Assembly: GCA_009618505.1 (NCBI GenBank) | Contig: WJOQ01000022.1 | Span: forward strand, 1 to 10,665 | Length of the DNA: 10,665 bases | Origin: Clostridia bacterium | Lineage (GTDB): Bacteria > Aerophobota > Aerophobia > Aerophobales > AE-B3A | Reading direction: 5' to 3' | In this document: in pieces, positions 275 to 10,407 of the stretch | How the letters are laid out: the number at the start of each line of letters is the position of its first letter | Position numbering within the stretch: position 1 is the first letter of the stretch | Notes under the pieces: generated by a model | What the model saw: only the letters and a program-made list of their open reading frames with translations | The model's database searches: none | Told to the model about the DNA's origin: nothing | Position numbers and translations under genes: made by a program

Positions 275-345
275 AGCGGAGCGAAACTCGTCCACTACTG
301 AGGAGAGTTAAGTTAATAAGAACTAGGTAAATGGACGAGGAGCGC
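275..345 (+). repeat. Hairpin module A
   Basis: The module begins with AGCGGAGCGA (275-284). CTCGTCCA (287-294) pairs perfectly with TGGACGAG (332-339), and GCG (281-283) can also pair with CGC (343-345) across a 3x3 internal loop. The loop ends with AGAACTAGGTAA (319-330), just before the right arm. The same leading word and the same 12-base loop word recur in module B with a different stem sequence. Confidence 0.65.
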
Positions 346-410
346 TACGCGGTGGGGTTAGGGAATTACGTTGATTGATGTTAGGTGAAGATTGGAAGGT
401 GAGCAAGGAT

Positions 411-477
411 AGCGGAGCGACGCTAATTCGCTGCTGAGTAGTTTTACGTTAACTAGAACTAGGTAAGCGAGTTAGCG
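411..477 (+). repeat. Hairpin module B, same loop as A with a different stem
   Basis: The leading AGCGGAGCGA (411-420) and the loop word AGAACTAGGTAA (455-466) are identical to module A. The stem here is CGCTAATTCGCT (421-432) with AGCGAGTTAGCG (466-477), 12 bp with one T427/G471 opposition. That would be a G-U wobble in an RNA read from the + strand but an A-C mismatch on the other strand. The loop word overlaps the right arm by one base. A conserved loop with a changed but still complementary stem suggests selection on pairing. Confidence 0.7.
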
Positions 478-522
478 GCGTGTAGCGGGGACGTGAGAAG
501 GTTTCCCAAGGAATAGGCGCTG

Positions 523-584
523 AAGTATGATAGGCGAGTTAGTGGAGCGCAGCGGAGCTAATTCGCCTTGGAAGCTCGATACTT
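523..584 (+). repeat. Hairpin module C, inverted use of module B stem words
   Basis: AGGCGAGTTAG (532-542) pairs with CTAATTCGCCT (558-568). The single odd pair, G538/T562, is again a wobble only for + strand RNA. An outer stem AAGTAT (523-528) with ATACTT (579-584) encloses it. The loop holds GGAGCGC and AGCGGAG, words also found beside modules A and B. The 9-mers GCGAGTTAG (467-475, 534-542) and CTAATTCGC (423-431, 558-566) occur twice each, so modules B and C could exchange partners. Confidence 0.68.
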
Positions 585-4235: not shown

Positions 4236-5087
4236 TCAATAATACTTAAGTCTTGCAGTCATTCCGCATAGAGAGCAGCCCGACTTCGGAACAACATTCA
4301 AGTCCAAATTAAGCAAGGATCTATTTACAGGTAGTTGCCTGTTGGGGATGTCCACGTTAATAAGGCAGATGATGTCAAATATATTTGCCTTTATTTTATC
4401 CCTCAAGTAATTAATGGTCTGAGAAAGGAAATCATCCCCGATGGCTAACGGCTCAGCAATAACGATGCGATCCTTTTTTCTTATCCGTATTTTATGAGCT
4501 TCTGTGAGATCTTTTTCTGTGATAGGAATGACTTCAGAGTCAATTATGTTACCTACATCCACCAGTAAACCTGACCATGCCCATCTTTGCAGATAGGTGA
4601 TTGCTTTTATACCCTGGTCTGTATATGCGGTAATTAATTCGTCTCGGATCCAGTCCCGGCATCGAGCATTGCTTAAACAAGAAAATCTCTCTATATCGAA
4701 ACTGTAAGTACAACAATAATTTTGCCCAAAGGCTGCATGTTTCTTTATGAAAAATCCTTTCAGGTCGTCAGCTAACTCTGTTTTATCTATATTAGTGTGA
4801 GTGATATTGATGTTTGTGATTCTTGCTATCACTTGAGGTTTAGATAATTTACTAGGTTTTAATATGCATTTTAATCCAAATATAATTCCCTGTGCTATAT
4901 CTCGTAGTTTGTGTAGCCCTTGTTTTAATACACTTCTGACCCTCTTGACTGTTAATATCAACGATAAGATGGGTATTAGGGGAATGAATAAGAAATATAG
5001 CCTGATAGTTGCCCAATTGACTGATTCTAGATAAATTAAGCTGCTAATCGTGCTGATAATTGTAGAAAGAACTAAAAAGAGACGCAT
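4236..5087 (-). CDS. Membrane-anchored degenerate OPRT-like protein
   Basis: The protein has 283 residues. Two hydrophobic segments (about 3-20 and 27-47) followed by basic residues predict membrane anchoring with a cytoplasmic C-terminal domain. Residues 105-275 follow the OPRT layout. GIKAITYLQRWAWSGLLV (159-176) stands at the VDVVVGPAxGG strand. The PITEKDLTEAHKIRIRKKD segment (188-206) stands at the AEREDG hood. IVIAEPLAIGDDF (208-220) stands where VVVEDVVTTGGS binds PRPP. LDLNVVPKSGCSLC (261-274) matches the OPRT tail. The PRPP loop has lost its acidic pair and Thr-Thr-Gly, so catalysis is unlikely. It lies between pyrF (13 bases upstream) and pyrE, in operon order. The SD is weak (GAGAG). 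A regulatory or scaffold role is inference. Confidence 0.6.
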   Translation of the reverse strand: MRLFLVLSTIISTISSLIYLESVNWATIRLYFLFIPLIPILSLILTVKRVRSVLKQGLHKLRDIAQGIIFGLKCILKPSKLSKPQVIARITNINITHTNIDKTELADDLKGFFIKKHAAFGQNYCCTYSFDIERFSCLSNARCRDWIRDELITAYTDQGIKAITYLQRWAWSGLLVDVGNIIDSEVIPITEKDLTEAHKIRIRKKDRIVIAEPLAIGDDFLSQTINYLRDKIKANIFDIICLINVDIPNRQLPVNRSLLNLDLNVVPKSGCSLCGMTARLKYY

Positions 5088-6207: not shown

Positions 6208-6918
6208 TCAAGTAGCTTGTTTCTCTTGGACGATGAATTCATCAATCAAACCAAGGTCCCTTACTCTCCGTGCTAGGGCCTCTTTAGAAACCTGGAATTT
6301 TGTGGCGATACGCGGTATTAATGAGAGTAAGAGGGTGGCCCTCTTTAGTTTTGTAGGATGACCCTTATTATTTTGAAAAATATAACTGCGAAGTAGCTGA
6401 TTTAACAAACGGGGTCTAAAGCCTCCTCTTTTTGCCATTATTCGAATTCCTTTCAAGTTCACTAAATTTCTCCATTTTGCATCTTTATGGTCAAGTATCT
6501 CTCTTAAAAAGGATTCACAGACTAAGCCCCTTGGCATTAATAAGCTAGCTGCGAAAGCATTTGCATCGTCTTCCATTTCCTTTTTGTTTTTTGGGCTGGT
6601 TGTCAAGCTTTTTGACCTATCGCTCTCTGCATTGAAAAAAACATGCCGAAGACAAATATGCCCGATTTCATGGGCGACGGTGAATCTTTGTCTTGGTATG
6701 CCGTCGGCAGAATTTAAAACAATGCGTTTTTCGTTTAAAATAAGTTTACCAGGGGCATTTCTGCCGAGATTAGTTATATCGAGACGAAGTTTGTATAAAA
6801 GTTCCGCTATTAGCTCAACAGGAATAGGAAGCCTGAGCTGCTGGTGGAATTGCTTTCGGAACTCATCTAGCAAAATTTCCGCCTCCTGTTCTATACTCTC
6901 ACGGTTTTGAGCGCCCAT
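6208..6918 (-). CDS. ImmA/IrrE-family metallopeptidase
   Basis: The protein has 236 residues. HEIGH (83-87, in RFTVAHEIGHICLRH) is the zinc-binding HExxH motif. DDANAFAASLLMP (117-129) is the second family signature, with Asp118 at the position that is usually Glu and acts as the third ligand. The C-terminal part (about 170-230) is helical and basic and probably recognises a partner. In this family ImmA cuts or disables its partner XRE repressor in response to damage or cell signals, as in ICEBs1; IrrE/DdrO is the Deinococcus counterpart. Here the XRE gene ends four bases upstream, with AGAGGA between, so the two are coupled. This supports a derepression switch. Pairing as a toxin-antitoxin system is an alternative. 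Confidence 0.88.
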   Translation of the reverse strand: MGAQNRESIEQEAEILLDEFRKQFHQQLRLPIPVELIAELLYKLRLDITNLGRNAPGKLILNEKRIVLNSADGIPRQRFTVAHEIGHICLRHVFFNAESDRSKSLTTSPKNKKEMEDDANAFAASLLMPRGLVCESFLREILDHKDAKWRNLVNLKGIRIMAKRGGFRPRLLNQLLRSYIFQNNKGHPTKLKRATLLLSLIPRIATKFQVSKEALARRVRDLGLIDEFIVQEKQAT

Positions 6919-6922
6919 TCCT

Positions 6923-7279
6923 CTACTCTCTCCGTGCCATTTCCCTTATCAGTTTCATTATAGATTGTTCGCAATTGGGCGACCGAAGAATTTCATCTCT
7001 GTTTTTAAGTATATTTTTTACAAACGTATCCGGTATTTTGTCAGCCAGAAGCATGAATTTTTCTGAGAGCCGTTCATGAGATTTCCCATCTGACAACGCT
7101 TGTGCGAATTTCTCTAGTACCTTTCGACCAGGACCTTGTTTGTGGCCAAGCCTGTTATTTTCAATCTTGCTAATATAAGTATGGCTAACATGCGCTTTTC
7201 TAGCTAAGTCAAGCTGAGTCATTTCTTTGGATAGTCTTAATTGTCTTATTGTTGTTCCGAGGGTTTCGTCTGGTGACAT
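6923..7279 (-). CDS. XRE-family transcriptional regulator
   Basis: The protein has 118 residues. A Cro/CI helix-turn-helix domain covers residues 8-64: LGTTIRQLRLSKEMTQLDLA, then KAHVSHTYISKIENNR (recognition helix about 32-41). The rest is helical and charged, probably for dimerisation or ImmA contact. AAGGAGG (7286-7292) precedes ATG 7279 and lies within the last codons of a 32-codon ORF whose stop is two bases before this start. The palindrome at 7411-7445 over the promoter is the likely operator, which predicts autorepression. The ImmA-like peptidase follows directly. Confidence 0.9.
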   Translation of the reverse strand: MSPDETLGTTIRQLRLSKEMTQLDLARKAHVSHTYISKIENNRLGHKQGPGRKVLEKFAQALSDGKSHERLSEKFMLLADKIPDTFVKNILKNRDEILRSPNCEQSIMKLIREMARRE

Positions 7280-7646: not shown

Positions 7647-7829
7647 ATGCCAAAGTTATTATCCACAAAGGAAGTTGCTAATATCCTGAGTGTTTCTGCG
7701 AAAGTAGTTAGAGGATATATACAACAAGAGGGACTGATAGCTATAAGGTTAAAACGAAGATTAAGGATTGACGAGAAGGATCTTGGTAATTGGCTGGAAG
7801 AGAGAAAGACAGGGAACAGAAAAGAATGA
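7647..7829 (+). CDS. Excisionase-like HTH protein
   Basis: The protein has 60 residues and is a MerR/excisionase-type winged helix (HTH_17 type). LSTKEVANILSVSAKVVRGY (5-24) holds the helix-turn-helix, IRLKRRLRIDEKDLGNWLEE (33-52) the wing and the last helix. Such proteins bind DNA and often act as excisionases or recombination directionality factors, or help a recombinase at its site. AAGGAGAAGG precedes ATG 7647. Its stop overlaps the recombinase start as ATGA, so the two are coupled and probably act together. Confidence 0.85.
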   Translation: MPKLLSTKEVANILSVSAKVVRGYIQQEGLIAIRLKRRLRIDEKDLGNWLEERKTGNRKE

Positions 7830-8527
7830 AAGCGGTTGGCTATATCAGGGTGTCCACTGAGGAGCAGGTAAGGGAAGGAATATCCCTGGAGGTTCAGGAA
7901 GATAAAGTTAAGAAGTATGCAGACCTTCATAATTTAAGACTCACAGAAATTATAAGAGAGGAGGGTAAGTCGGGCAAGGACCTTGACCGGGAGGGAATAC
8001 AGAAAGTTATAACTCTATGTAAAGACAGAAGCGTTGATCATCTAATCGTTTATAAAATGGACCGGTTAACCAGGAGAACTCTAGACCTCTTAATTTTAGT
8101 AGAGGAAGTGTTTAAGCCTAATAAAGTGCAATTTCATTCTATCACTGAAAGAGTGGATACCTCTACGGCTCAGGGTAAATTCTTCTTAACCATTATCGGA
8201 GCTATGAGTCAAATGGAACGGGATTTAATTTCTGAGAGAACGAGCGAGGCTTTAAGATATAAAATATCCCAGGGAGAAAATGTAGGAGCTCCTCCATTAG
8301 GATTTTTAGCTGAGGATAAAAAGCTTTACCGGGTAGACGGGGAATTTGAGGTTGTAGAACATATCAAGAGACTGAAAAGAAAGAAGCTATCCTTGAGGCA
8401 AATTGCTAACCGCTTGAATGAACAGGAAGTCCCTACTAAACGGGGAGGATCCTGGTATGCAGGGACGGTAAGGTATATCCTCCGTAATAGTAGATATAGA
8501 GAGGTTAAGCAGGGTGTTAGTGTATAA
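7826..8527 (+). CDS. Compact serine recombinase
   Basis: The protein has 233 residues, starting at ATG 7826 in the ATGA overlap with the HTH gene. An earlier in-frame ATG (7790) would run deep into that gene and is less likely. The resolvase catalytic domain spans 1-145: YIRVST (6-11) with nucleophile Ser10 and Arg8, KMDRLTRRT (77-85), and MERDLISERT (130-139). The C-terminal part, APPLGF (155-160) then SLRQIANRLNEQEVPTKRGG (189-208) and TVRYILRNSRY, is a short recombinase DNA-binding domain. It lacks the zinc ribbon and coiled coil of large serine integrases of 450 or more residues. Together with the HTH partner it may move or invert a local segment. Its stop lies in a hairpin (8522-8547). 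Confidence 0.9.
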   Translation: MKAVGYIRVSTEEQVREGISLEVQEDKVKKYADLHNLRLTEIIREEGKSGKDLDREGIQKVITLCKDRSVDHLIVYKMDRLTRRTLDLLILVEEVFKPNKVQFHSITERVDTSTAQGKFFLTIIGAMSQMERDLISERTSEALRYKISQGENVGAPPLGFLAEDKKLYRVDGEFEVVEHIKRLKRKKLSLRQIANRLNEQEVPTKRGGSWYAGTVRYILRNSRYREVKQGVSV

Positions 8528-8686: not shown

Positions 8687-9697
8687 ATGACTAATAAACA
8701 GACCACTTTAGCCTTGTTTCCAGGGGTGTGTGTTCAAAATGATAATAAAGAGAAACTTACACGATTGGATTTAGACGATGCTCTGAAAGAAAAGTTATTG
8801 CCTTTTTGCCGGCTCAACTATGGTGAGATTTGGGAAGATCCCGTAAAAGGACATAGAGTTGGTGTGTTAGACGCTACAAGCTATGAAGATGTTAAAAAAA
8901 TAATGGGCGACGAAAGAGCAAAGTTAGTAGTTAATGATCCGCCATATAATGTTGTGGTTGGTAATAATAATACCGAGAATCTATTTAAGAAAACTTTAAA
9001 TGAATATATAGTTTTCTCTCAAGAATGGGTGAAGAATGCCGTTTCTATTATGGATAGCAATGCACATTTGTATATATGGTTAGGTGCTGACCAAAAAGAT
9101 GGTTTTCAACCACTTCCAGATTTTATGATTATGATGAGAAATATTAAGGAATTAAGAGCTAGAAATTTTATTACCTTAAGGAACCAGCGAGGATATGGAA
9201 CACAAAAAAATTGGATGTGGGTAAGGCAAGAATTGTTATATTATGTAAAGGGAGACCTGGAATTCAAAGTAGTATATACAGATATACCAAAAATATTAAA
9301 AGGATACTACAAGGTAATAAATGGTAAAAGAACTGAAAATATGGAGCGAAGTAAATCAGATACAATTAGACCAGGAAACGTTTGGATAGACATTCAACAG
9401 GTATTTTATAGGATGGAGGAAAACGTTCCTGGTTGCTACGCTCAGAAACCTTTAAAAGCAATTGAAAGAATAATTTTAACGAGTTCAAGGGATAAAAATA
9501 TTGTAGTTGATTTCTTTTCTCATTCGGGGACTACTTTATTAGCTGGCGAAAAATTAAATAGACAAGTATATACTTTTGACAATGATCCAATTTTTGCAGA
9601 ATTAACTATTAGAAGACTAGAACGCTATAGACAAACTGGCAAATGTGGGTGGCAATGGAATAACCCTTTTCCTGAGATTGATATCAAGGTATCTTAG
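8687..9697 (+). CDS. DNA (adenine-N6 or cytosine-N4) methyltransferase, beta-type order
   Basis: The protein has 336 residues. NDPPYN (83-88) is motif IV, the catalytic DPPY. QKPLKAIERIILTSS (253-267) is motif X. VVDFFSHSGTT (273-283) is motif I, with SHS in place of the usual xGxG, and YTFDND (295-300) is motif II. Motif IV before motif I, with a long middle segment (about 140-250) as target recognition domain, is beta-class order. DPPY favours adenine-N6 methylation, but N4-cytosine is not excluded. GGGAGG lies eight bases before ATG 8687. The nuclease gene begins two bases after its stop. Together they form a type II restriction-modification system in which this enzyme protects host DNA. 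Recognition sequence unknown. Confidence 0.88.
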   Translation: MTNKQTTLALFPGVCVQNDNKEKLTRLDLDDALKEKLLPFCRLNYGEIWEDPVKGHRVGVLDATSYEDVKKIMGDERAKLVVNDPPYNVVVGNNNTENLFKKTLNEYIVFSQEWVKNAVSIMDSNAHLYIWLGADQKDGFQPLPDFMIMMRNIKELRARNFITLRNQRGYGTQKNWMWVRQELLYYVKGDLEFKVVYTDIPKILKGYYKVINGKRTENMERSKSDTIRPGNVWIDIQQVFYRMEENVPGCYAQKPLKAIERIILTSSRDKNIVVDFFSHSGTTLLAGEKLNRQVYTFDNDPIFAELTIRRLERYRQTGKCGWQWNNPFPEIDIKVS

Positions 9698-9699
9698 AG

Positions 9700-10407
9700 A
9701 TGAATTTAAAACAGTTAAAAGAGCACTTAAATAGATTTGCGGCTGACTTGCAAAATGGCGATAGAAAACTTCTTAAAGTGCGCTTGGAAAGTCTGATATC
9801 TGTTTTCCCTTTCAGCGAATACGAATACATGCTTATGTTCTTAAAAGACAGAAAAATTATAACTTTTGAAGAGTATGAGAAATTAAGAGAGAATTACGTT
9901 AAAGCAAATAAATATCTTAAGCTTTACGGGATGGCTCCACGCATATTTGGCCAAATTTGGGGCGAAAAACATATAAGAGATTTAGATAGCAGATTCAAGA
10001 GAGCAAATAAATCTTTGGATCCAAAGTACAACGGGCAATACGATGTTTGGATAGATGGCCTTAGAGTGGAAATAAAAGCATGCCGGGCAATACACACTAA
10101 AAAAAGAGGAGATATTGTCTCAAAAGCATTGCGATATGATTCAAAAAACCCCTTCTGGATGAATTTTCAACAGTTAAAACCCGATCATTGTGATGGATTT
10201 GTTTTTATTGGTGTATGGGTTGACCAAATAGTGTATTGGGTTCTGACTAGCAAAGAGGCAAAAAAAAATAAGCATATTAGTCACCAACATAGAGGCGGAA
10301 TAGAATATCAAATAGGAATAACTGACAAGAACATAGCAGAATTTGACATATATAAAACACCACCTTCTAAAATCGCTGAGACTATTCTTCAAATAAAAAC
10401 ACAATAA
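9700..10407 (+). CDS. Type II restriction endonuclease, PD-(D/E)XK fold
   Basis: The protein has 235 residues and follows the methyltransferase by two bases. The catalytic core is YDVWIDGLRVEIKACR (114-129): Asp115, then Glu124-Ile-Lys126, an ordered D-x8-ExK that fits the PD-(D/E)XK nuclease active site binding Mg. NFQQLKPDHCDGFVFIGVW (155-173) fits the later core strand. The N-terminal 70 residues are helical and charged, probably for dimerisation or DNA contact. The gene is A/T-rich like the methyltransferase, which suits joint transfer. The nuclease cuts unmodified DNA. I do not recognise its specificity, and a different nuclease-like role is unlikely given its neighbour. Confidence 0.82.
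   Translation: MNLKQLKEHLNRFAADLQNGDRKLLKVRLESLISVFPFSEYEYMLMFLKDRKIITFEEYEKLRENYVKANKYLKLYGMAPRIFGQIWGEKHIRDLDSRFKRANKSLDPKYNGQYDVWIDGLRVEIKACRAIHTKKRGDIVSKALRYDSKNPFWMNFQQLKPDHCDGFVFIGVWVDQIVYWVLTSKEAKKNKHISHQHRGGIEYQIGITDKNIAEFDIYKTPPSKIAETILQIKTQ

Follow-up and report, generated by a model that had tools for sequence, protein, structure and literature searches.

The window (the whole stretch of DNA analysed, 10,665 nucleotides) has no credible gene in its first 760 bases. The longest stop-free frame overlapping positions 130–760 has 90 residues, and a coding tract was rejected: a relative search with a 72-residue frame at 89–307 on the − strand yielded one candidate and no match. On the + strand, 130–760 is a non-coding tract poor in C (11%, against 34% G), and in it lie hairpin modules A (275–352) and B (411–488), hairpin C (519–588), and diverged spacer repeats, among them 154–186 and 367–399 (76%). 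In two of the spacer comparisons, between 4 and 9 of 500 shuffles aligned as well as the real sequence; in two others the counts were 24/500 and 227/500. TRF found no tandem repeats in 1–760, and a simple scan of 1–2420 returned no terminator-like sites. Promoter-like sites were at chance level (6, shuffle mean 4.8). Near the start of the window lie a perfect 26-base palindrome with two 13-base arms (25–50) and two short hairpins (77–108 and 107–129). The palindrome comes with the word TTATGTAAAGT at 42, which resembles a XerD arm of a dif-like site.

The non-coding tract is followed on the + strand by a 62-aa reading frame (761–949) with a weak RHH resemblance (RHH_1, E 0.061, under the cut-off) and by a gene for a 226-aa HEPN-like protein (1013–1693; HEPN_RiboL-PSP, E 0.00053; 20.4 bits, the family cut-off being 28.4). 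A search with the latter gave 17 proteins, the window's own included, and R168, N169, and H173, which make up the R-N-x-x-x-H motif of HEPN, were invariant in all 17 aligned rows. The protein had HEPN-type matches only and none to the ToxN family. The 226-aa protein is a possible RNase toxin and the 62-aa protein a possible antitoxin for the adjoining HEPN gene. One relative of the HEPN protein (40%) was located in a genome, at a single Nitrospirota locus (L001), and none was found in viral contigs, plasmids, phages, or 395 Nitrospirota genomes. A 48-base direct repeat (799–846 and 1995–2042, 79% identical) flanks the HEPN gene, and by eye its second copy resembles a degraded remnant of the 62-aa frame.

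A long imperfect hairpin lies further downstream at 2230–2335, with AACTGGACAGT...ACTGTCCAGTT arms and a CCGCAC-TTCG-GTGCGG tip. Its folding energy was −51.5 kcal/mol (z −5.15), which 0 of 200 shuffles equalled; this is a stronger signal than that of the modules. Rfam gave no match near threshold. The hairpin is possibly a structured leader belonging to the gene at 2408, or else a small mobile element of palindromic type. A 283-aa frame at 4236–5087 (−), between PyrE-like and PyrF genes, had no Pfam match, and its protein relatives were the window's own only. It is weakly similar to the PyrE neighbour, at 25% over 153 aa (E 5e-4), and is perhaps, on this similarity, a decayed or fast-changing paralogue of it. 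PyrF relatives reached at most 57% among 148 genomes and at most 58% among 80. An M78 peptidase and HTH pair is located at 6208–7279 (−; PADLOC capP 3.4e-24, capH 8.6e-8). At 7647–8527, a MerR-like HTH frame (HTH_17) overlaps a serine recombinase frame, a layout reminiscent of IS607-type transposases. No viral locus was found for the 62-aa frame or the recombinase. At 8687–10407, a DNA methylase adjoins a type II restriction enzyme match (2e-42). Three IMG/VR contigs encode relatives of the methylase (82%, 82%, and 72%).

Hairpin modules A and B

Module A consists of outer arms (276–283/343–350), an inner stem (287–294/332–339), and an apical loop carrying CTGAG...GTTAA..AGAACTAGGTAA. Module B is its paralogue, with an inner stem at 421–432/466–477. 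With B shifted by 136 positions relative to A, the alignment needs no gaps; 53 of 78 columns are identical, and the similarity score is 63, compared with a maximum of 38 in 500 shuffles. As the initial annotation had stated, they share two words exactly, AGCGGAGCGA at 275 and 411 and AGAACTAGGTAA at 319 and 455, and neither has a third exact copy within the window. The 5' word is invariant, the outer 3' ends differ, and conservation is highest in the loop, exceeding that of the stem. The paired positions coincide between the modules (i+j = 626 in A and 898 in B).

The two stems had been described as completely different and yet paired. The pairing was borne out: in the shared stem of 8 pairs, 9 of 16 arm letters differ between A and B and 8/8 pairs form in both. 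"Completely" was too strong a word, because 7/16 arm positions and 3/8 pairs are unchanged. Four of the remaining pairs changed on both sides and one changed via G-U. Outside the stem arms, 16 of 62 positions differ. In register i+j = 626 the four double-changed pairs still pair, against at most two in every other register. The pair adjoining the stem of A, 295/331, is an A-C mismatch.

Low-complexity, purine-rich DNA, once duplicated locally, could also have kept this pairing by luck. Stems of at least 12 pairs in 130–760 (two seen) were reached by 15 of 200 shuffles and the number of Watson–Crick-only stems of at least 8 pairs by 22 of 200, so that the bare count is not exceptional, and the comparison concerns one paralogue pair and a stem picked after it had been seen. 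However, when the observed number of changes was placed at random, all 8 pairs survived, four or more of them by double changes, in only 85 of 200,000 trials starting from A and 88 of 200,000 starting from B, for a stem chosen after being seen, and the register of the stem is the best of all registers. Chance is rather unlikely. The strength of the signal lies in the paralogy and the shared register, not in the stem count. In the one comparison made, that of A with B, the stems covary. This covariation is to be read with caution because template switching, according to PMC8794818, can alter several pairs at once.

The initial annotation had assigned the structure to + strand RNA on the ground that the odd pairs are G-U only on that strand. 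The pairs themselves are as described (427/471, T-G; 538/562, G-T, on the + strand), and the argument built on them is weak because composition alone makes a G-T mismatch about three times as likely as A-C (0.34 × 0.27 against 0.28 × 0.11). It is also weak because module A folds equally well on the − strand (z −4.3 on + and −4.55 on −), as do the hairpins of 1–131. B (z −3.65 on + and −1.66 on −) and C (−2.62 and −0.66) favour the + strand. Three control stretches between or beside the modules had no excess structure (z −0.85 to 0.4).

Hairpin C and its complementarity to module B

Hairpin C has a lower stem (519–528/579–588) with three G-U pairs, which was missing from the initial annotation, and an upper stem (532–543/557–568) with an additional G-U at 543/557. 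The upper stem is composed of words resembling those of B with their order exchanged, in agreement with the earlier observation: C is identical to the 5' arm region of B (411 against 546) at 18 of 21 bases and to its 3' arm region (464 against 531) at 20 of 25. In each case 0 of 200 shuffles did as well. The score of the gapped B–C alignment was reached by 7 of 500 shuffles.

It had further been proposed that the arms of B and C can swap partners, perhaps as an RNA switch. On paper the two 5' arms form 12 pairs with each other and the two 3' arms 11 pairs, and the complementarity on which the proposal rested is real. The exchange itself is opposed by energy. The local hairpins fold at −67.0 kcal/mol, whereas the form with paired 5' arms reaches −55.7 and that with paired 3' arms −52.6 or −47.3 kcal/mol, penalties of 11.3 and of 14.4 to 19.7 kcal/mol, respectively. 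At the three positions tested, the local pairing probability was at least 0.998. The local partners would also lie closer together in transcription order. Since the exchanged forms are 11–20 kcal/mol worse than the local hairpins, a switch is very improbable and was rejected.

Search for relatives of the modules

Rfam gave no match at family thresholds, in keeping with the earlier statement that the modules match no known family. A permissive scan of 1–2000 returned five matches far under threshold, among them WT1-AS_5 (477–552, 15.7 bits against 80). We also built a covariance model, R1. Within the window this model gives good matches to A and B, a faint signal on the reverse strand of both, and 6.4 bits for C. 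R1 with strict filters found no match across 295 genomes, and none was found at 15 other loci. No credible module copy was obtained by blastn in phages and plasmids. Comparison of the DNA of 1–2400 with 8 viral records gave none either, and in blastn against 230 genomes, with few candidates scored per genome, it hit five: one hit was the HEPN piece of the genome G001 and four were short stretches outside the modules.

Sequence patterns were searched as well. In IMG/VR, three patterns gave 0, 1, and 3 exact matches (L023, L025, L026, and L027), of which L025 and L027 share one identical stretch. All four sit in open reading frames and, compared with R1, matched only at the loop word, only in truncated form, or not at all; they were judged to be chance matches and were rejected as module copies. 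A one-mismatch pattern was found in 1 of 395 genomes (L024), not above the reversed control, and a two-mismatch pattern in 165 of 395, where the reversed control matched widely too. The six two-mismatch matches that were compared with R1 (L028–L033) had no match to it.

Covarying copies of the modules were thus not found in the collections searched, from which the source genome was absent. These negative results are weak because the genomes all came from the phylum of L001 (a Nitrospirota MAG) and did not include the source genome, and empty results obtained without a positive control carry no weight. At L001 the HEPN gene starts about 108 bases past the preceding reading frame, and the module model had no match there. 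One case is little, and it does not show the modules to be a companion of the HEPN family.

Origin of the modules and comparison with known systems

What the initial annotation observed holds in substance, and its interpretation as a repeat-containing structured RNA on the + strand is supported in part: A and B did diverge while staying paired, and Rfam gave no match at its thresholds. The switch and the RNA antitoxin are not supported, and the strand argument is weak. A new structured RNA of the + strand, either a leader or a small RNA with repeated hairpins whose apical loop would be a putative binding site, perhaps controlling RHH/HEPN, is a possible but doubtful explanation. It is consistent with pairing kept although 9 of 16 arm letters changed, compared with 16 of 62 positions elsewhere, with the conserved loop word, with the better folding of B and C on the + strand, and with the C-poor, G-rich composition of that strand. 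However, no Rfam threshold was reached, covarying copies elsewhere were not found in the collections searched, promoter-like sites were no more frequent than expected by chance and terminator-like sites were absent, and the HEPN relative at L001 has only its short upstream stretch, with no module. The more specific proposal of a new RNA class, in which the RHH/HEPN pair would have a leader of repeated hairpins, their 33-base apical part conserved, and the putative HEPN RNase or small protein would bind or cleave them in autocontrol of the operon, is improbable.

An RNA antitoxin, also suggested earlier, would here be of type III and act on HEPN; it would explain why hairpins are repeated ahead of a gene that may encode an RNase. 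Its anatomy does not agree with the locus, where TRF tandem repeats in 1–760, a terminator-like site before the toxin gene, and a ToxN-like toxin were not found. The units are spaced by 136 bases, and between the hairpins and HEPN sits a short reading frame. The antitoxin was therefore rejected on anatomy as barely conceivable.

We favour, tentatively, a cluster of locally duplicated palindromic intergenic repeats. This is supported by the paralogy of A and B with 8/8 pairs kept through 9 changes, by the recurrence of B words in swapped order in C and of spacer words, by the equal folding of A on both strands, and by further palindromes in non-coding DNA (25–50, 77–108, 107–129, and 2230–2335). 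It also agrees with accounts that REPIN hairpins commonly show compensatory changes (PMC3116915) and that template switching can create and mend stems (PMC8794818). On the other hand, no scattered copies were seen: apart from A and B, R1 has no good match in the window, with C at 6.4 bits. In contrast to a REPIN, the stem is less conserved than the loop, and B and C favour the + strand.

From these data we infer the following order of events. A hairpin unit of about 78 bases would have been duplicated locally to give A and B, and a rearranged piece would have given C. After the duplication, the middle of the stem was probably altered on both arms together, and the hairpin would have survived because of this joint change. 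The likeliest cause would be one acting on the DNA itself, either template switching between the arms during replication or constraint on a folded single strand, as in REP/BIME-type repeats. The modules would then have no specific RNA function. If they are such repeats, they provide a small, clean case of pairing kept through change that helps tell template switching from RNA selection. If they are RNA, they represent an orphan motif beside a HEPN locus.

The modules resemble ToxI as described in PMC8860590 in that units are repeated ahead of a gene that may encode an RNase. They differ from it in numbering two to three, with a spacing of about 136 bases, rather than forming short tandem repeats, in being predicted hairpins rather than a known pseudoknot, and in having HEPN in place of ToxN with an intervening reading frame. 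Like tandem riboswitch-type leaders (PMC9481103), they place one structured module directly after another of similar build, upstream of a gene; in contrast to those leaders, they have no Rfam match at threshold and no relatives found in the collections searched. No RAYT/REP tyrosine transposase was detected among the window proteins scanned with Pfam. In REPINs, two invariant inverted ends flank a less conserved hairpin spacer, while in the modules the loop and 5' word are kept, the stem is variable, and the 3' ends are different. The modules are not classed as REPIN because of this difference in layout. As imperfect palindromes in extragenic DNA they nevertheless agree with REP/REPIN, and they share with REP, BIME, and REPIN elements, as portrayed in PMC3116915, repetition, predicted single-strand folding, and compensatory changes between the arms.
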